A model generated the notes under the pieces. The model had not been told where the DNA came from. It did no database searches and saw only the letters and a list, made by a program, of their open reading frames with translations. From NCBI GenBank assembly GCA_003249035.1, contig QBMK01000028.1:1-53082 (forward strand): DNA of 53,082 nt, written 5' to 3'. The position numbers and the translations under genes were made by a program. Below, in pieces: positions 21,198 through 41,635 of the stretch (position 1 is its first letter; the number at the start of each line of letters is the position of its first letter). Source of the DNA: Pseudanabaena sp. GTDB taxonomy: Bacteria > Cyanobacteriota > Cyanobacteriia > Pseudanabaenales > Pseudanabaenaceae.

Positions 21198-21587
21198 AAA
21201 AAACCTATGTTAAAGCTTTAAGTATAGCTAGCATCAATTTAACTAAAGTGGATTAAAGTCCCAAATTAATGAATAGATTCAAGGAGAAGCGCTTCTTTAA
21301 CTCCGGATTGCCAAGTTATGATTTGTAGATAACCTGATCGAGTGACCAAATATTAAAAACGATTATGCTAGGATGGATACAAATCGATGGATCTATTTAG
21401 TTTATTTTAGATAAGCTGGCAGTAATAGGGGAATTTATTCAGTGAATTCAAGATTTTATAACCAAGAATTCGTAAAATAAAGCCGAAGTTATTGTTGATG
21501 TAAGATTTAAGAAATCTTTTCTTTGTGATGCACAATAGATTCAACATACAAAAAAGTCTAAAATATACTCTCGTGAGGAGTGAATCA
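21198..21587. other. Upstream region of the porin gene
   Basis: A 390-bp divergent region. It includes a short gagaagcgcttct palindrome near 21292 and an AT-rich tract ending at the strong GAGGAG ribosome site before the porin start. Reading frames in it are not gene-like. Confidence 0.5.
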
Positions 21588-23207
21588 ATGAAAAAACTAT
21601 CTTTGAATTTAGCTGGCAGCCTAAGCCTATTAGGCGTTATTGGTGCAGTCGCCGCAACACCAGCCTTTGCTGAAACCACCACAAATGTTTCGCAAATGAG
21701 CAAAGCTATGAACAGCGACCCTGTCGCTCAAAACGTAACTTCAGTATCTCAACTTAGCGATGTAAAGCCAACCGATTGGGCTTTCACTGCATTGCAGTCA
21801 TTGGTAGAGCGCTACGGTTGTATCGCTGGCTACCCTGACAGCACTTTCCGTGGGAAACAAGCAACCAGCCGCTACGAGTTTGCCGCAGGTTTGAATGCTT
21901 GCTTGGACAAAATCAATGAAATCATTTCCGCAGGCTTAGCTGACAAGGTTAGCAAAGAAGACCTAGCTACTTTGCAAAAGCTTCAAGAAGAGTTTGCTGC
22001 TGAACTAGCTATCCTTCGTGGTCGTGTTGATGCTCTTGAAGCTAAGACTGCTAGACTCGAAGCCCAACAATTCTCCACCACCACCAAGCTGACTGGTGAA
22101 GCGATCATGTCTGTACAGGGTGCTAGTGGTAACAATAACCCTGGGACTCCTACAAACACCAATATTTTCGTGTCTAGCCGCGTTCGTCTAAACCTCAACA
22201 CCAGTTTTACAGGTAGCGACCTGTTGCTAACTAGACTAGAAGTTGGTAGTGGCGGTGGTTCTGTTCCTGGAACATTTGGTGCTCTATCTGGTGCTCAAGC
22301 ATTTCCTACCAACTCCAGCAACGCCGGTTATGCAAGCTATGGTCAAGATTGGGCTGGTCTACCTTCAACCGTTACACTAGCAAAACTGCGCTACGACTTT
22401 AACGTTGGTGACGCTCGTGTTAGTGTTGGGCCTGTAATGCATGCCTACGATCACATCGACATCAATAGCTATGCTAATAACGAAGCTTTTGACTACTCTT
22501 CTACCTTCTTCATTAACAACCCACTTATGGTTTTTGTTAATGGTCAAACTGGTGGAGCTGGTGGTGCAATCGATTGGAACATTAGCAAGAGTGCTTTCAG
22601 CTTCCGTGCGCTTTACTTAGCTGCATATGGTAACCAGCCCTCTGCTGCTAATGGCGTTAACCGTGGTCTTTTTGGTGATACCTACCAGGGAACCGTTGAA
22701 TTGGAATATGCTCCAAAGAATGTCGATGGCGACAAAATCTTTGCCGTTAGACTGCAGTACACCAATGCCTCTGTAAACAACACTGGTGTTAACACTGGTG
22801 GTGTTAACGTTGAGTGGAAGTTTGCTAAGGGTGCAGCACTCTGGGGCCGTTATGGCTTTGGCACTCTAGATAACCGTGGCGTACCTAATAATATTCCCGG
22901 AACATTTAACTCTGGATTCGTCACCACTCCGACAACCAACACAACCATCAACGCCCAAACTTGGATGTTTGGATTTGCTTTCCCTGACTTGTTTAAGGAA
23001 GGAGCTATGGCTGGTATCGCAGTTGGTCAACCGATGATTACTAGTCAAGTTGGAAATTCAACTCAGACTAACTTGGAATTGTTCTACAACTTCCCAATCA
23101 CGAACAATATCCGCATTACACCTGACCTCCAATTCATCTTCAATCCTAACAACAGCACTCAGAGCACCATCTTCGTTGGTACTCTAAGAACTGTTTTCTC
23201 ATTCTAA
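21588..23207 (+). CDS. SLH-domain outer-membrane porin (OprB/Som type)
   Basis: This 539-residue outer-membrane protein starts at the ATG at 21588, behind a GTGAGGAGTGAATCA ribosome site. A signal peptide (MKKLSLNLAGSLSLLGVIGA ... TPAFA) is followed by an S-layer homology domain (DVKPTDWAFTALQSLVERYG, FRGKQATSRYEFAAGLNACL). Next comes a short coiled coil (LQEEFAAELAILRGRVDALE) and a large beta-barrel ending in ...IFVGTLRTVFSF with a terminal phenylalanine. This is the architecture of cyanobacterial Som/iron-uptake porins, in which the SLH domain anchors the barrel to the pyruvylated cell-wall polysaccharide. Substrate selectivity cannot be judged from sequence. A strong terminator follows. 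Confidence 0.93.
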   Translation: MKKLSLNLAGSLSLLGVIGAVAATPAFAETTTNVSQMSKAMNSDPVAQNVTSVSQLSDVKPTDWAFTALQSLVERYGCIAGYPDSTFRGKQATSRYEFAAGLNACLDKINEIISAGLADKVSKEDLATLQKLQEEFAAELAILRGRVDALEAKTARLEAQQFSTTTKLTGEAIMSVQGASGNNNPGTPTNTNIFVSSRVRLNLNTSFTGSDLLLTRLEVGSGGGSVPGTFGALSGAQAFPTNSSNAGYASYGQDWAGLPSTVTLAKLRYDFNVGDARVSVGPVMHAYDHIDINSYANNEAFDYSSTFFINNPLMVFVNGQTGGAGGAIDWNISKSAFSFRALYLAAYGNQPSAANGVNRGLFGDTYQGTVELEYAPKNVDGDKIFAVRLQYTNASVNNTGVNTGGVNVEWKFAKGAALWGRYGFGTLDNRGVPNNIPGTFNSGFVTTPTTNTTINAQTWMFGFAFPDLFKEGAMAGIAVGQPMITSQVGNSTQTNLELFYNFPITNNIRITPDLQFIFNPNNSTQSTIFVGTLRTVFSF

Positions 23208-23279: not shown

Positions 23280-23701
23280 TATCTAATGCCAATCAGTGTT
23301 TTTGCCATAGGGAAATAGGTTGCCCATATTTTAGGATCGGGGCGGCTTGCCCAGTCGCGGCGGGAAACAATTAATTGCAAAATAATAGCAGCTTGATCTT
23401 GATTTAGATTTTGCGCTGTGACTTTGACAGATACATCAGAAACAAGCACCTCACGATCAAATGTCCGTTGAGCCGCCGATCGCGCTAGTATTTCGGCTTG
23501 ACGTGTCATTACCGTAAATCCCTCGTCTTGGTTGACCAGTAGCCGAATATCGACCTCACGGCGCTCCGCAGCAGCACTACTCGCGATCGCAATGGTAGAT
23601 AGAGTTGCGATCGCTGAGACAAGTAAATATTTAGTTAATCTACGAAATGGCTGAGCCATAGAGAAATTAGGAGAAACATGCGATTCGTTTTTCATAGTCA
23701 T
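23279..23701 (-). CDS. Small secreted protein of unknown function
   Basis: This protein (about 140 residues) has a signal peptide in MAQPFRRLTKYLLVSAIATL followed by an AAA cleavage region. The mature domain of about 90 residues contains VDIRLLVNQDEGFTVMTRQA and VSVKVTAQNLNQDQAAIILQ. I do not recognise a named family, though it looks like a conserved cyanobacterial periplasmic or lumenal protein. The start is uncertain: ATG codons at 23701, 23695 and 23659 are all possible, and the last places the signal peptide ideally. It is convergent with the porin and divergent from the giant gene. Confidence 0.7.
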   Translation of the reverse strand: MTMKNESHVSPNFSMAQPFRRLTKYLLVSAIATLSTIAIASSAAAERREVDIRLLVNQDEGFTVMTRQAEILARSAAQRTFDREVLVSDVSVKVTAQNLNQDQAAIILQLIVSRRDWASRPDPKIWATYFPMAKTLIGIR

Positions 23702-23845
23702 CTTCGCCAGAAACTCACAAAAGAAATTATAGAAAAGTCGCCAAGATATTAGCAAAAAACTGGGAAAGATGTGTGCTATTGTCTGCTAACAAATTTGGCT
23801 TTAGAGTGTAGCCTACTTAAGAGTCAATTTCCCTACCAATTTTAG

Positions 23846-23890
23846 TAATCTTAGGATTTATGGCACTTTACGCTATAAATCCTAAGATTA
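23846..23890. repeat. Palindrome upstream of the giant-protein gene
   Basis: 15-bp perfect arms 23846-23860 and 23876-23890 flank a 15-base loop, 40 bases before the start at 23930. The two flanking genes diverge, so this may be an operator or a leader hairpin rather than a terminator. Confidence 0.65.
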
Positions 23891-23929: not shown

Positions 23930-25069
23930 ATGTCAAAAGTTCTGATTAGTAGTATGATCGATCAAATTAATACATTGCTGACCCGACCAGTTGGATCGAT
24001 ATCAAGGAAATCATCCTCAGATACTATTCATCAGCAGAGAGAGCAACTAAAACAGCTTCGATCGCAACTAGAAAGCTTAACGGACTACTCACAGCTAAGT
24101 AATCTAGAGCAGCAATATCAAGCTTTAATAACATCCTTACAAGGGGAAAGTTATCCCCAGAATGAGCCAAGCCATGATCTGGCTAGCGAACAAACTAATC
24201 AAAATGACGCAAAAAACGAAGAAATCAGAACAAGAAAATTTAAAACAGATAAACTAGATATATTGCCCCCCTTATTATTTAGTGCAGAAGTTAGCAACTT
24301 ATTTGGCGCTGAATCTTACTTGACAGAGGAGACTAGCACAATGACTAATGGCACGCCTGAGCCTAATTCGACATTTGTTAACGATCGCATGATTGCTTCG
24401 CTTCAGCAAGCAATTCAACAGACATTGCAACAGGTTGTCAAAGAGTCAGTCCAGCAATCATTGCAGGAAGTGGTCAGCCAAACTCTCGCTACCGAAAGAG
24501 CGCTCATGGTAGGAGAGATTTCGGCGAGTATAAATCAAATAGTTGAATCCCAGCAGCGATCGCAAATAAGTCAAGAATTAATTGTTTTAAATCAACAAAA
24601 ACAAAAGTTAAACGATGAAATCTTGCAGTTAGAGTCCGATCGTGCGACTTGGATGAAACAGTTTCAAGAATTTCAAACAACTCAACAGGAAGTTTTAGAT
24701 AGATCGTTAAGTTCAGAAAATAACTACCTGAGCGAACAGATTTCTGATAACACTGTTAGCCCATTAAGAGAGCCTCAACAAGAAGAATTTACAAATAAAG
24801 TACAAGAACAAACCGATCGCTTTTTACTGCATCTAGATGAAATGTTTAACACCACATTTCGATCTCTAGAACAAGAAATTCAAGGCTATCAAACATCGAT
24901 AGTAGCCAAGCTTGGTCATATGGAAAGCCTAGAGCAAAAGGGTGAAGCCTTAATTAGTATCGGATTAGTCAACAGACTGGCCAGAGCTCCTCAATTACGG
25001 CTGAAGCGCTTTCAAGTGATGCAACCATATTACCCGAACTCCCCAATGATATTCCCGTCCGATATTTAG
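23930..25069 (+). CDS. Coiled-coil N-terminal part of a giant Hsp70-like protein (frame broken near 24980)
   Basis: This 379-residue ORF starts at an ATG behind GGGGGCATT. It contains an early helical segment (REQLKQLRSQLESLTDYSQL, residues about 34-53) and a long glutamine-rich coiled coil (residues about 150-325). The last true-looking stretch is QKGEALI..LVNRLAR. After that the frame changes character (APQLRLKRFQVMQPYYPNS) and stops at 25069. The next frame is open from 24958 and continues as acidic protein (SSSITAEALSSDATILPELP), so the coding sense passes from frame 2 to frame 1 between about 24977 and 24990. A one-base deletion, sequencing error or programmed shift joins it to the following ORF. 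Function of the intact protein is unknown to me. Confidence 0.75.
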   Translation: MSKVLISSMIDQINTLLTRPVGSISRKSSSDTIHQQREQLKQLRSQLESLTDYSQLSNLEQQYQALITSLQGESYPQNEPSHDLASEQTNQNDAKNEEIRTRKFKTDKLDILPPLLFSAEVSNLFGAESYLTEETSTMTNGTPEPNSTFVNDRMIASLQQAIQQTLQQVVKESVQQSLQEVVSQTLATERALMVGEISASINQIVESQQRSQISQELIVLNQQKQKLNDEILQLESDRATWMKQFQEFQTTQQEVLDRSLSSENNYLSEQISDNTVSPLREPQQEEFTNKVQEQTDRFLLHLDEMFNTTFRSLEQEIQGYQTSIVAKLGHMESLEQKGEALISIGLVNRLARAPQLRLKRFQVMQPYYPNSPMIFPSDI

Positions 25070-25098
25070 AAACTTTTACTGAACCTGCTGATGAAGAC

Positions 25099-28000
25099 TT
25101 GATCAATGCCCTATTAGCGGGTAATAAGTTTGGCGAGGCAGTCGAAGTTGAACCACTTGAAGCATCAACAATTGAGGCTGAGCTTCTTGGAGACGTTACA
25201 AATTCTTCAGAAGTGGAAACTAATGGTGAGGAGCTACTAACCTCAGCGCCAAATCTAGAAGATTATGAAGAAAACACAGAAGATGAAGATGTAATGAACT
25301 CTGCCGAACTGCAAAGTTTATTAAGCGAAGACTCTCCTGTTCATTCAATGGAGCCAATTGTAGAAATACAAGCCGATCCGTTAATTGATCTAGCTGATTT
25401 CGGCACGAGTATTATTCTTGATCCTCAAAGTGCGATCGCTGCTCGTGAGTTAAACCCTGATTTTGATTTTGCTGCTGCGACGCAAGTAGTCGAGAGATTC
25501 GATGCTCCAAGAAATCGAATGGAAGAAAATGAAGCAGAAAGTAATAATCAAGAATTCCTTTCATTAAATTTTCCTACGGATGACATAGTCAGCGAATCTG
25601 GAGAATTAATTGATGATCCTGAGCTTTTGCAATGGTTAGAGGAAAGTAATAATCGCCTTAATTCAACCAGCAATATTTCTGACATTGCACCAGATGAGGA
25701 TTTATTGTTATGGCTAGGTAATGAAGCTCTCGACATGGCTAAACTACCTACTCAGGAAGGAACCCAATCACAAATGTTCAATGCTTCGGCGTCTGACATA
25801 CAAGTTTTTAATGATTCTCAAATCGATCCTATTTCTGCTGCTGATATAGATTTGGGAATACACAACGATGAAGCAGATGATATAGAATCCAAAATTGAAC
25901 AATTTTTAAATTATTCAAATAGCGATCGCGCTGATGATTCTGATGAATCACTAATTCTACTGACCAGTAAAAATATCAATGATTCTACTTTTCCAGAATG
26001 GGGAGATTCATTAGTTGATGATCTTAATTCTGACCTAGAACGCCTTGATGCTGGAGGCGAATCAGATGAGCTAATCTCAGCTAATCTTGACAAATTTATT
26101 CGTAATACTCCTTACGCACTAACCAATTGGGAAGCTGAAGAAGCCCAAGCCTATCCCACAATCATCGAAGTCTCAGCTAGAGAGACAAGTGATTTAAATG
26201 TTCAGACCCATCCATCAACCGACGCATTAGAATTAGCACCAATTACTGAAAATCCTAATTCCTCATCAATGGATCGATTTGCCGATTCAGTCCCTGAGCA
26301 ACCTGAACAGCTAGAAGTGGTTGTAGATATCGCTGATTTACAAAGATCTTCAGGCTCATTCAATAATTTCCCTGAGATTCTTGATAATTCTGATGCCCTT
26401 TTTGAAGTAAAGCCAGAAGAGCAGATACCCGAAAGCGCATTGCCTCTCTACTCCAATTCATCCGCTGCTGATGTTGATGATATGGATGCAATTTTTGCTG
26501 AAGTAATTGCCGAAAATGCAGCTAAATTTACTCAAGCAACTCCATCTGTGCCTAGTGATGAACTTGATGACTTGTTATTGTTTGTGCCCACTGACGCCAT
26601 TACTCACGGAACAAGCATCAAGGCTAATCCAATCCTAGATGGTGAGGCTGAGATTGAAAAAATTTTATTTGGATTCGATCCAATTACTAAGGCATCAGAA
26701 TCTGAACCTGAATCTGAATTGATAGAAACTGATACAGTCATGCAAGCTTTCCCAACAGAAAGCTCTGATAAGCTTGATATTGTTGCCCAAACAATAATAC
26801 GACCTCTGCCTTCTCCTGAATTGATAGAAGAATCGATCGAAGAAGAGCTAGATACAATTTTGCAAGGTTTTGCTCAGGATGAATCAATAGATGTAATTGA
26901 TACTTCAGCCGTGACTGGATTTGTGGCAATCGAAGAAGTTGCAAAAGTTTCAGAAAATCATAATGCTGATATCATTCAAGAAGAAGATGATGATGATGAT
27001 TGGTCTGTAGCACTAGAGCAACTTGAATCCAAGCTAGCACAGCCAACTATAAACAAAGAAGATAATTTTAAGGCTGAACCTTCTGAGTTGTCAGCAGATG
27101 AGTTCTTTGCTTCCTTAGAATATGAAAAGCTAGATGATTTAGCAAATACTACCGAACAAGCCACTGCCGCAAACCCTTCAGACAAAATATCGACTGAAGC
27201 GATCGCTGATTTCATTGATTTAGAGAATATCCCTGAAGATGAGGAAGACGACTTATTGCTCAATGAGTTTGCAGATGCTCAGGGCGACGCTCCAAGTAAT
27301 GTTGCAGATAATGAATGGGATAATTTATTAAAGGATTTGAACTCATTTAACTTTAACGAACCATTACTTGATGATCGGCGTGCGCAGCTTGGGCTGTCAT
27401 CTGTAGCACCAATTAGTGACACAAGTGAAAATGTTTTCGATATTGACTCACTAGTATTAGAATCCCGAAGTACCGCTCTGATTCCTGCTCCACCAGAGAA
27501 AGAAGTTTATAGCCTTGATGATACTTGGGTTTTAGGTATTGATTTTGGTAGTACAGCAATAAGGGCGAGCTTACTTAATGCTGATAATGGAAGGGTATAT
27601 TCTCTATCTATTGATAATTCTGATGAAATGCCATGCAAAATATTTTGGTCTGAAGATCACAGCTTTGATGACCCGATCGCTAAAGATATTCGGACAATCC
27701 GTGCAGGATCGCAGGATTCAGGGTTAGACAATGGCGAATTAGCTCTCGTTAATTTTAAACAGTTTCTGAAACTAGGCTTGCCTTATCGCGGTGTGAGTAC
27801 TTGGCAGCCAATCATCCAATGGTCTGATTCTTGCCAAGTGAATCTGCGCTGGTTAATTGCTGCCCTCAAAAATTTACTGGAGCAAATTCCAACTCATGCC
27901 AATCATCCCAAACTTCCTGATGTTGGTTTGATTTTGATGAAGCTTAGTGGCGTTGTTTTTGGTTATCCTTCTAAGTGGTCAGATACATATATTCTCAATA

Positions 28001-29172
28001 TACGAGAAGCAATTCTTAAAGCAAAGCTAGTTAGCCAAGCGGAGCAGGTAATGGCTGTCGATCAAGCGATCGCTCCCGTTTTATCTTTGCTTCACGAGCA
28101 AAAAATCTCTCAAGAAATTACGCTTTTAATAGATGCAGGAGCTATTACAACCAGCCTCTGTTTGACCAATGGGCTTAGTGAGAATAAAGATCGTTCAAAT
28201 CTCCATGTCCGTAGTCTTGACTATGCAGGTATTAGCATCAGTCAAGATATTGTCGTTAACTTGTTCTATCCACACTGGCAGCTAATCACTAATCCTAATC
28301 GCCATCTCTGGAATTTTGATCATCTCTGCTTGCCTGAGATTGGTGCTGCTGAGCCCCAACAACGTATGCTCCTTCAGCAATATTTATTAAGCTCCAATCT
28401 TGGTCAACAAATGTTGGAGCTTGCCGATCGCGTCAAGGTCGCATTTGGTAGAGATGTGGGTACAGATAGTTGGAATGAAGATCTGATGGGACAACCGATC
28501 GTCGTCCTACGACGTGAGTTGGAAAACTTAATTTTGCAACCATTTGTCCAACGACTCAATCGAGAACTTAATATCATTCTCTGTAATGAGGGAATGCTCG
28601 GCGAAGATGTTCGTCAAGTACTGCTGCTGGGTTGCACTATGTATATTCCCTTGCTATCACGTTGGCTAGCCCAAAAGCTGCCAAATGCCAAGATTGACTC
28701 ATTAACCACTTCTGTAGTTGCTAATGGCTTAGCCGTATCTCCTCTCTATCCCAATTTTCAAGATGTTGCACGTCAACAATATTCTGATTATTTTCTTCTT
28801 CAAGAGATTTGTCGTCTCAACCTCACTCAATCGGTTAATCCAACTCAACTTCTCCAACAATTACAAATGCGCGGGATTAATATCAAAACATGCCGCGATC
28901 GCATTTTGAGTATTCTGCAAGGTGATTTACCAGAGGGGCTATTCCCTTGGCAAGAACCAGAAAGCCCAATGATTTTAGAAGATCCGACCCTAAGTAATGA
29001 GTTGTTTTCAGGTCGATTGTTTGAGATGGAGACGGATGGTACATATCAGCCCAATGTGACTAAATTCCAGCAATTGCGAGTTTATTTACAAGCGATTATC
29101 GGCAATATGAGTCAAACGCTGAGTGAGCCTCTTGTTTTTCCTGAGATCAAAACCTTGGCGATCTCCAAGTAA
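25099..29172 (+). CDS. Giant acidic protein with C-terminal Hsp70/actin-fold ATPase domain
   Basis: This 1,357-codon ORF is open further upstream to 24958 but has no ATG until codon 66; the nominal start at 25099 is a TTG, so I read it as the continuation of the preceding ORF. About 800 residues are acidic and disordered, with recurring short motifs of the type D/E-x-L-L-x-W/F-L (PELLQWLEES, EDLLLWLGNE, DELDDLLLF, DNEWDNLLKDL). From about residue 808 comes an Hsp70/actin-like ATPase: phosphate-1 LGIDFGSTAIRASLLN, middle block GVVFGYPSKW and AILKAKLVSQAEQVMAVDQA, phosphate-2 LLIDAGAITTSLCL, and adenosine motif VLLLGCTMYIPLLSRWLAQK. No classical substrate-binding domain follows. A cytoplasmic, multivalent scaffold with an ATPase head is an inference. 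hisF lies downstream behind hairpins. Confidence 0.8.
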   Translation: MINALLAGNKFGEAVEVEPLEASTIEAELLGDVTNSSEVETNGEELLTSAPNLEDYEENTEDEDVMNSAELQSLLSEDSPVHSMEPIVEIQADPLIDLADFGTSIILDPQSAIAARELNPDFDFAAATQVVERFDAPRNRMEENEAESNNQEFLSLNFPTDDIVSESGELIDDPELLQWLEESNNRLNSTSNISDIAPDEDLLLWLGNEALDMAKLPTQEGTQSQMFNASASDIQVFNDSQIDPISAADIDLGIHNDEADDIESKIEQFLNYSNSDRADDSDESLILLTSKNINDSTFPEWGDSLVDDLNSDLERLDAGGESDELISANLDKFIRNTPYALTNWEAEEAQAYPTIIEVSARETSDLNVQTHPSTDALELAPITENPNSSSMDRFADSVPEQPEQLEVVVDIADLQRSSGSFNNFPEILDNSDALFEVKPEEQIPESALPLYSNSSAADVDDMDAIFAEVIAENAAKFTQATPSVPSDELDDLLLFVPTDAITHGTSIKANPILDGEAEIEKILFGFDPITKASESEPESELIETDTVMQAFPTESSDKLDIVAQTIIRPLPSPELIEESIEEELDTILQGFAQDESIDVIDTSAVTGFVAIEEVAKVSENHNADIIQEEDDDDDWSVALEQLESKLAQPTINKEDNFKAEPSELSADEFFASLEYEKLDDLANTTEQATAANPSDKISTEAIADFIDLENIPEDEEDDLLLNEFADAQGDAPSNVADNEWDNLLKDLNSFNFNEPLLDDRRAQLGLSSVAPISDTSENVFDIDSLVLESRSTALIPAPPEKEVYSLDDTWVLGIDFGSTAIRASLLNADNGRVYSLSIDNSDEMPCKIFWSEDHSFDDPIAKDIRTIRAGSQDSGLDNGELALVNFKQFLKLGLPYRGVSTWQPIIQWSDSCQVNLRWLIAALKNLLEQIPTHANHPKLPDVGLILMKLSGVVFGYPSKWSDTYILNIREAILKAKLVSQAEQVMAVDQAIAPVLSLLHEQKISQEITLLIDAGAITTSLCLTNGLSENKDRSNLHVRSLDYAGISISQDIVVNLFYPHWQLITNPNRHLWNFDHLCLPEIGAAEPQQRMLLQQYLLSSNLGQQMLELADRVKVAFGRDVGTDSWNEDLMGQPIVVLRRELENLILQPFVQRLNRELNIILCNEGMLGEDVRQVLLLGCTMYIPLLSRWLAQKLPNAKIDSLTTSVVANGLAVSPLYPNFQDVARQQYSDYFLLQEICRLNLTQSVNPTQLLQQLQMRGINIKTCRDRILSILQGDLPEGLFPWQEPESPMILEDPTLSNELFSGRLFEMETDGTYQPNVTKFQQLRVYLQAIIGNMSQTLSEPLVFPEIKTLAISK

Positions 29173-29176
29173 TCCC

Positions 29177-29301
29177 AAAACACAAAATGGCTACGCCATT
29201 TTGTGTTTTTAAAACCAAAAAAAAAAGGCGGTGCGAAGCACCGCCTTTTTTTTTTGGTTTTAAAAACACTACAGCGCTTTGCGTTCTAAGCAAAGCGCTG
29301 T
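29177..29301. terminator. Three consecutive hairpins between the giant gene and hisF
   Basis: Hairpin one: 15-bp stem 29177-29191 with 29195-29209. Hairpin two: 24-bp perfect stem 29211-29234 with 29238-29261, including A10 and T10 runs. Hairpin three: 11-bp stem 29271-29281 with 29291-29301. This is a very strong barrier; hisF must have its own promoter within the last 45 bases or inside this cluster. Confidence 0.85.
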
Positions 29302-29345
29302 AAAATACTCACTCTTGCTGTGATTTTGGAAAATTTAAAGAGCTT

Positions 29346-38495: not shown

Positions 38496-38981
38496 TTAGC
38501 TCAAGCCAGAGCTGATGTAGTCAAGGTATACACCCAATTCTTTACCAGCTTCAGAACCAACGATGCTAGCAGCAACTTCTTTGATTGCTTGGATAGCTTG
38601 AATGGTAGAAACTACAGGTACTCCTAAGGAGTTGTAGGTTTCTTTCAAGCCATTGAGTACACGTTCGTCAAGAATCGAAGCGTCACCAGCAAGCATTGCA
38701 TAGGTTGCATAGCGCAAGTAGTAGTCGAGGTCGCGGATACATGCGGCATAACGACGGGTGGTGTACATGTTGCCGCCGGGACGGGTAACATCTGAGTACA
38801 ACAAGGACTTGGCAACAGCTTCTTTAACGATGGTTGCAGAGTTAGCAGAGATAGCGGCAGATGCACGAACACGAAGTTCGCCAGTTGCGAAATATGCTTT
38901 TAGCTTTTCGAGAGAAGCGGCATCAAGGTACTTACCTTGAACATCAGAAGAATTGATGACGGAAGTAATTGCGTCTTGCAT
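38496..38981 (-). CDS. apcB: Allophycocyanin beta subunit
   Basis: This 161-residue phycobiliprotein starts [20 protein letters not shown]. The phycocyanobilin-binding cysteine is Cys81 in [20 protein letters not shown]; Asn71 in GGNMYT is the methylation site typical of beta subunits. It forms the heterodimer with ApcA in the phycobilisome core. Second gene in the operon; the spacer to apcA is 135 bp. Length and motifs are complete. Confidence 0.98.
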
Positions 38982-39116
38982 TTTTGTATATCTTTTAGGT
39001 TTGCAATTAGTTTTTTGAATTACGGATTCAGAATTCTGAATAGCTTAAATTCTGTTTTTAAAGAAAATCAATTCAAGAACAATCTAAAAATAATCTAAGA
39101 AAGTTCAAGTGCCGAT

Positions 39117-39602
39117 TTACTGCATTGCACCGATGACGTAGTCAAAGTAGTAACCAGCTTCGGCTGCATCTTCACCAGACAACAATGCTGCTGCTGCATT
39201 TTTTAGACCACGTACACCTTCAACAACGCCAGGAATAGGAGTGCCTAAAGAGTTGTACATTTCCTTAACGCCAACTAGACCGATTTCTTCGATAGGTGTG
39301 ACATCGCCAGAAACAACTCCGTAAGTGATCAATCGGAGGTAGTAGTCGAGATCACGCAAGCAGGTTGCGGTCATTTGTTCGCCGTATGCATTTCCACCAG
39401 GAGAAACAACATCAGGACGCTTTTGGAAAAGTTGATCGCCAGCTTGCTTAACGATACGCTCGCGGGATTCGGTCAAGGTTTGGGCAATGCGAAGACGGCG
39501 CTCACCAGAGCTTACAAAGCCTTTAATACGATCTAGTTCGCCAGGGCTGAGGTAACGTGCTTCAGCATCTGCATTCACGATAGACTTCGTGACTACGCTC
39601 AT
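39117..39602 (-). CDS. apcA: Allophycocyanin alpha subunit
   Basis: This 161-residue phycobiliprotein reads [20 protein letters not shown] with chromophore Cys81 in [20 protein letters not shown]. It matches the main core ApcA rather than ApcD or ApcE. The ATG at 39602 follows GGAGAAAAAATTA. It is the first gene of the apcA-apcB-apcC unit. No apcE lies immediately upstream, so this operon is promoted from the 250-bp region 39603-39854. Confidence 0.97.
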
Positions 39603-40391: not shown

Positions 40392-41351
40392 TTAGAGCAA
40401 AAATAAATTGGTCATAACGGATGCGATGCGGTTGAGATATGGAGCTGGATCAAGGGCTACCCAACCATCACCAGACGAGACCATGATCTCAAAGTGCAAA
40501 TGTGGACCCGTTGAACGTCCTGTTGACCCAACAATGCCCAGTTGCTGACCTTGAGCTACACTCTGTCCTTGCGAGACATAAATTGCCTCAAGGTGGGCAT
40601 ATCGCGTGCCTATGGAGCCATGATCTAGTTCGACAAGGTTGCCATAACCATCGCCCCAACCTGCAAAATCGACACGTCCTGCTTTGGCAGCAAGTACTGG
40701 TGTACCAAAAGACGCGCCAAGGTCGATGCCGCTATGAAATGACCAGATGGCAGTGACAGGATTCATTCGCCAGCCATAGTTTGATGTGACAGGCACAGAG
40801 TATGGCAGAGGATATCCACCTGTTTGGAAGATGACATCAGGATTGCCTGAGCCTCGAGATGCGATCGCAGAATTGAAGGGAACGGGTTCAGGCTTCCAGA
40901 TTGCCCCAGGCACAAATACGACTTGTGGTTTCCGTTGACAGCCGTTACGCTCAAACAGAACATCGGCGCGAATGTTGTATTTTTTGGCAACGGTTGTGTA
41001 GTTTTCTTCGTTTTTGAAGCGATAGGTTAGACCGTCTAGGGGTGGAATCGATAAAGTTTGACCAACCTTGACTTCGCCACTTCGGACTTCAGGGTTTAGC
41101 CCCATCAAAGTTGCAGTTTTAAGTTCGTATTGCTTAGCGATCGCTACTAGAGTCTCGCCTTGCTTAACTTTGTGCTGGACAAGATCATCAAGTGTTGGTT
41201 TACCACAAAGCTCTTCTGCCTCTTTTGCATTAGATTGATCAATCGGAGTTGATGGGGTTGAGGTAGTTGCAAGTATGGCTAAGGGAAACAAACTCGCGAT
41301 CGCACTAGTAATTAAAACTGGGAGTAGGGAAATTTTCCAAGTCGGGTTCAT
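40392..41351 (-). CDS. LysM-domain M23 family metallopeptidase
   Basis: This 319-residue exported protein has a signal peptide or membrane anchor (residues about 1-30), a LysM peptidoglycan-binding domain (VKQGETLVAIAKQYELKTATL), a second LysM-like segment, and a C-terminal M23 lysostaphin-type domain. Zn ligands are seen in SFHSGIDLG (H-x-x-x-D) and PHLHFEI (H-x-H). The protein can hydrolyse or, if inactive, bind peptidoglycan cross-links, usually as a divisome or cell-separation regulator. The motifs look complete. Divergent from the inositol-monophosphatase family gene. Confidence 0.93.
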   Translation of the reverse strand: MNPTWKISLLPVLITSAIASLFPLAILATTSTPSTPIDQSNAKEAEELCGKPTLDDLVQHKVKQGETLVAIAKQYELKTATLMGLNPEVRSGEVKVGQTLSIPPLDGLTYRFKNEENYTTVAKKYNIRADVLFERNGCQRKPQVVFVPGAIWKPEPVPFNSAIASRGSGNPDVIFQTGGYPLPYSVPVTSNYGWRMNPVTAIWSFHSGIDLGASFGTPVLAAKAGRVDFAGWGDGYGNLVELDHGSIGTRYAHLEAIYVSQGQSVAQGQQLGIVGSTGRSTGPHLHFEIMVSSGDGWVALDPAPYLNRIASVMTNLFLL

Positions 41352-41506
41352 GGAGTATTACTTGAAATATATATGAAAAAACTGTGAGGCAGTAGGATGC
41401 TAAATTTGTGATTTGATAACAAGTAACAAAAAATGAAGAATTATGACAATAATCTTCACAAAATAAATGCCTAAATATTCTCGCAGAGATCGGCTCTTTA
41501 AAGACA

Positions 41507-41535
41507 CCACCGATCTGGTGAAATTAGATCGGTGG
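41507..41535. repeat. Palindrome in divergent intergenic region
   Basis: 10-bp perfect arms 41507-41516 and 41526-41535 flank a 9-base loop, about 100 bp upstream of the phosphatase start and 155 bp upstream of the peptidase start. It may be a regulatory site or a hairpin of the same family as the other palindromes. Confidence 0.55.
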
Positions 41536-41635
41536 AATTCGCTCTGCTAATTTTGTTGGCGTTATTTTAGCGATCGCTACAGTAATCCCATCTTTAAAAC
41601 AATCTGAAATCAACTAAACAACACTTCTAAAGATC

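Follow-up and report, generated by a model that had tools for sequence, protein, structure and literature searches.

How does what reads as one giant protein come to be written in two reading frames? The window, that is, the whole 53,082-nucleotide stretch analysed, is contig C20 of a Pseudanabaena sp. draft genome (60 contigs, 4.55 Mb, 95.5% completeness). On its plus strand ORF1 (23930-25069, 379 aa counted from its ATG) overlaps a second frame, ORF2 (open from 24958 to 29172, 1,404 codons), across 24958-25069; the two stand in a -1 relation and together read as a single protein. An earlier note, made from the letters alone, took them for one gene of about 1,740 residues, broken by a one-base deletion or a two-base insertion at 24977-24990, and left a choice among sequencing error, pseudogene and an undescribed programmed shift. 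The extent that it gave for the second frame is confirmed; its other claims are best judged against the relatives.

The gene lies in one open frame in all 25 other Pseudanabaena genomes, 24 of them with a complete copy (1,670-1,896 aa from ATG, a range into which the proposed length fits) and one, G006, with a copy truncated where its contig stops. For G010 and G024 the search match overran a stop, which lies at the C-terminal end of the match and closes the open frame. The N-terminal and Hsp70-like parts share an open frame also in L056-L058, three more members of the family with strong matches to both parts, and among the loci compared the window is the only one to hold them in different frames. 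ORF1 and ORF2 are thus one gene: the single fused homologue that the earlier note had proposed to look for is present throughout the genus. A search with the Hsp70-like part covered 58 genomes, the window's own included, and gave a match in 50; the nearest named relatives in the protein search (9 loci) are eight Pseudanabaena and an uncultured cyanobacterium. The giant protein, of about 1,750 aa, is core to Pseudanabaena. In the window's own assembly the junction has one match and the Hsp70-like part one BLAST-level match, and no intact backup copy was therefore found; a more sensitive profile search of that assembly returned two additional, weaker matches.

Where the frame changes is fixed by the orthologues. 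The 5' part follows the ancestral frame from 23930 to 24958 (343 codons, a mostly helical/coiled-coil N-terminal domain), which is the start of the single ORF in the 25 same-genus genomes. A nucleotide alignment of the junction with the 25 orthologues places a 10-base gap between 24958 and 24959 in the window, with direct alignment afterwards. The spacing pattern gives the same result: from KGE[AE]LI to [RK][IM] there are five codons in 25/25 same-genus orthologues, of which the window retains the first, AGT at 24956-24958, together with the final two bases ahead of CGG (24961). From 24961 the second frame reads RISQQTG..., the same continuation as in the orthologues. The one-base indel at 24977-24990 is accordingly ruled out by the orthologue alignment, which needs none. 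ORF1, which had been read as genuine through LVNRLAR near 24985, leaves the ancestral frame after residue 343, and its tail (24959-25069) runs in a frame that the orthologues do not use, from SIGLVNRLAR, whose first residue is the last in-frame codon, to PSDI and a premature stop at 25067-25069. Coherence of the second frame begins at 24961, not near 24985; the break had been placed 27 bases late because the out-of-frame IGLVNRLA resembles ALVNRI by chance. Two copies of ATTAGT, 11 bases apart, lie on either side of the deletion point (24953-24969), and the sole homopolymer of at least four bases within 24940-25069, CCCC at 25041, does not lie at the lesion.

That the two frames overlap in the required -1 relation would suit a programmed ribosomal frameshift or transcript slippage that connects them, but the orthologues make such a mechanism extremely improbable. 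The frame changes in 0/25 of them, and a shift would not restore the residues that are missing. In agreement with the earlier reading, no canonical -1 heptamer (X XXY YYZ) was found in phase within 24958-25069. AAAGGGT at 24937 is in phase and lies upstream of the overlap; a -1 slip at that point would meet TAG at 24955-24957 and therefore cannot join the frames. With no relative that shifts and no usable slippery site, programmed frameshifting was rejected, and of the three possibilities first listed only sequencing error and pseudogene are left.

Another way to keep both halves in use is gene fission, in which the giant protein would have just come apart at a domain boundary: the coiled coil would be made as a protein on its own, the acidic linker and Hsp70-like part would have a start of their own, and both products would still be under selection. 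The break falls exactly between two structural regions, stops are absent from both parts, and the mildly raised omega described below is compatible with looser selection. The second part alone, however, could be made only from an ORF at 25099-29172, which opens with TTG, the earliest ATG, GTG or TTG of the second frame, or from a start further on; its first ATG is at 25294, 112 codons in (the earlier count was 65). TTG 25099 is preceded by a purine-rich stretch that is weak at most, and there is no recognised excess of promoters (13 promoter-like sites in the region vs 13.9 in shuffles). The parts are separate genes in no relative, the pattern that the earlier note had named as contrary to a single gene, and all 17 of the strongly conserved residues encoded at 24961-25098, upstream of that TTG, are still intact in the old frame. 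Fission is therefore an unlikely explanation, if less so than a programmed shift.

The best account is a deletion that inactivates the gene. One loss of 10 bases at 24958/24959, where the coiled coil ends and the acidic linker begins, would shift the frame of everything downstream in the gene; translation would stop at 25069, and the product would be no more than a coiled-coil fragment followed by 36 junk residues. The locus shows one of the marks of a frameshift pseudogene, a frame-disrupting lesion set against single-frame homologues in 25/25 relatives. Frameshift pseudogenes and singleton frame transitions are among the cases treated for prokaryotic genomes by Antonov et al. (2013; PMC3711429); as in the cases described there, the frame transition lies within a conserved gene and is explained by an indel, not by a recoding motif, while the present one differs in that it is confined to one genome, consists of a 10-base deletion and is accompanied by no further decay.

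The deletion is probably a genuine, recent, inactivating mutation and the gene a fresh pseudogene; both the presence of the lesion in the organism and the loss of function are what we infer from the sequence. The main rival, appreciably less probable though the most serious of the alternatives, is an artefact in which the gene is intact in the organism and 10 bases were dropped in assembly or consensus calling. Since all 25 relatives have kept the gene, its loss would not be an obvious one, which counts against a real deletion and for the artefact, as does the lack of a second lesion or a stop in 1,745 codons. For the artefact there are also the 17/17 intact residues just downstream, the short ATTAGT repeats on both sides of the spot and the draft state of the genome. 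Common sequencing errors, however, would not usually remove 10 bases cleanly where there is no long repeat or homopolymer, and the size of the gap together with the absence of a long homopolymer at it favours a real lesion.

A real lesion is also favoured by the state of the rest of the contig, since no other broken gene was seen in the part compared. When the frames of five relatives were set against the window, no other real gene lay in two frames across ~19.2-44.6 kb, the extent of useful matches in the stretches fetched, and each of 14 control genes aligned without stops to 3-8 relatives. Two further candidate frameshifts, which would have spoken for a faulty assembly, were rejected, both on the minus strand and both judged non-coding: at 23282-23861 the match lies upstream of the conserved start, and at 41296-41546 the frames of two of three relatives are without any M. 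Elsewhere on the minus strand, at 38496-39602, two adjacent 161-aa ORFs lie on the same strand, and the matching frames of relatives are ~98-100% identical.

The third argument for a real lesion is that amino-acid change is faster in the Hsp70-like part, though the controls share part of the speed-up. Parsimony singletons, with a raised N/S in the window, preceded a codon model built for this analysis and fitted to each part with the window branch set against the rest. The window-branch omega is 0.276 vs 0.174 in the N-terminal part (2dlnL 3.3), 0.272 vs 0.170 in the acidic part (2dlnL 7.8) and 0.156 vs 0.062 in the Hsp70-like part (2dlnL 18.8). Eight other tips, treated in the same way, give 2dlnL of at most 1.8 each in the Hsp70-like part and at most 0.5 in the acidic part; two of them reach values as large as the window's in the N-terminal part, G005 with 6.1 (lower) and G018 with 3.5 (higher). 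Among the 14 control genes fitted singly only oprB is raised (2dlnL 8.6). This gene, just upstream at 21525-23207, encodes an OprB-type porin with an SLH domain, and its window-branch omega is 0.172 vs 0.102. Pooled controls give a window-branch ratio of 1.41 (14 genes, 4 taxa) or 1.48 (11 genes, 5 taxa), and of 1.22 without oprB.

With the ratio fixed near the control values, the Hsp70-like part remains raised for 4-5 taxa (2dlnL 9.8 at 1.4, 6.9 at 1.5); with 7 taxa, for which the control fit did not converge, it is not clearly so (2.8 at 1.7, 0.9 at 2.0). Neither the N-terminal nor the acidic part is conspicuous against the control ratios. Of residues conserved in the genus, the window has changed 32/618 and G015, a tip of similar length, 11/609 (Fisher test p 0.0016, computed with 607 instead of 609); in L044 and L055, two more divergent relatives, the conserved residues lost outnumber those lost in the window.

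The same sequence limits the age of the break. The remaining 1,745 codons hold no stop codon and no second indel, in keeping with the earlier view that this is not an old pseudogene. Full neutrality over 10-12% of the branch, the share that the omegas suggest, would produce 7.9 expected stops, with a probability of 0.0004 of seeing none; not all of the extra amino-acid change can therefore have come after the break. For an unselected gene, an expectation of no more than 3 stops corresponds to an age below ~4% of the branch. If the break is real, then, it appears to be recent, and any relaxation of selection would mostly have preceded it.

What would have been lost is a conserved, uncurated cyanobacterial type of protein which, as its sequence is read here, is predicted to consist of a coiled coil, an acidic linker of ~850 residues, a divergent Hsp70-like ATPase domain and a C-terminal module. 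An AlphaFold2 model of residues 1-342 (mean pLDDT 68, pTM 0.25) has three helices within 2-70 and further ones at 147-272 and 282-341; a stretch of low confidence lies between. The linker (24961-27504 in the second frame, 848 codons), presumably disordered by its composition and conservation profile, has 202 D/E vs 36 K/R in 849 residues counted, and the orthologues measured also carry an acidic linker. Repeats of an acidic-hydrophobic motif are not claimed for it: the window has 8 vs 5.4 (sd 2.1) in shuffles, and others reach up to ~3 sd.

The Hsp70-like nucleotide-binding domain (27505-28740), to which an actin fold is assigned by homology, begins with an invariant GxDxG and has conserved DxGA-like and LxxGG/ST-like blocks. 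It is followed by the C-terminal module (28741-29169; YSDYFLL...RGIN...C.DR...), which occupies the place of the Hsp70 substrate-binding domain and is conserved in 18 aligned members. Used as a profile (A2), the C-terminal 555 residues match DnaK chains (PDB 8w1m among them) with a best E of 1.3e-7 over profile positions 166-412, in the second half of the nucleotide-binding domain. Ten of the 18 members match Hsp70 (PF00012) at E up to 0.1, whereas for the domain of the window itself Pfam gives no match at E 0.1, and the three parts of the window's gene have no useful match in Pfam or NCBIfam. The domain is thus homologous, if divergent, to the nucleotide-binding domain of the Hsp70 family; unlike Hsp70, the protein has its own C-terminal module and giant coiled-coil and acidic regions in front, and a substrate-binding domain was not detected in a sequence test, in which the best stretches of 42 PDB matches all end by profile position 414 of 555. 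A fold model of the Hsp70-like part, built on a shallow alignment (10 rows; mean pLDDT 38), was set aside.

Other actin-like ATPases are matched weakly as well. PilM_2 (PF11104) is matched by 9/18 members, and PilM and MreB chains are matched at E ~5e-4, but these matches are weaker than those to DnaK, and the neighbours scanned hold no pilus genes, with the OprB porin upstream and HisF and an FkbM-type methyltransferase downstream. In the gap 3' of the giant gene, at 29269-29303 on the minus strand, there is a strong terminator-like hairpin of 14 pairs with a T-rich tail.

The Hsp70-like ATPase domain and C-terminal module of the window (27505-29169) and of L057-L068 form an uncurated cyanobacterial family of two sizes, short in frames of 594-975 aa and giant in frames of 1,300-2,600 aa. 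Of 96 genomes sampled from the class, 42, the window's own included, match at E below 1e-75. In 19 of them the open frame is at least 1,300 aa long and in the other 23 it measures 594-975 aa, frames truncated by contig ends being counted too. A search for literature on Hsp70 or Hsp70-like proteins with a coiled coil in Pseudanabaena or cyanobacteria found none. Judged by its architecture alone, the intact protein may be a nucleotide-controlled scaffold of a kind undescribed in cyanobacteria: the coiled-coil rod would oligomerise, a long acidic tether would connect it to an Hsp70-like switch predicted to bind and hydrolyse ATP, and the C-terminal module would stand in for the substrate-binding domain of the chaperone.

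The lesion looks like ordinary gene damage and not like a new way of gene reading, and where two frames overlap in this manner, comparison with orthologues should precede any appeal to recoding. Of more interest is the by-product, a widespread and uncurated cyanobacterial protein type, with strong matches in 42/96 of the class genomes sampled, which in Pseudanabaena is of giant size and combines a coiled coil with an acidic tether and a divergent Hsp70-like ATPase domain. Provided that the deletion is real, the strain would be a natural mutant for this giant protein.
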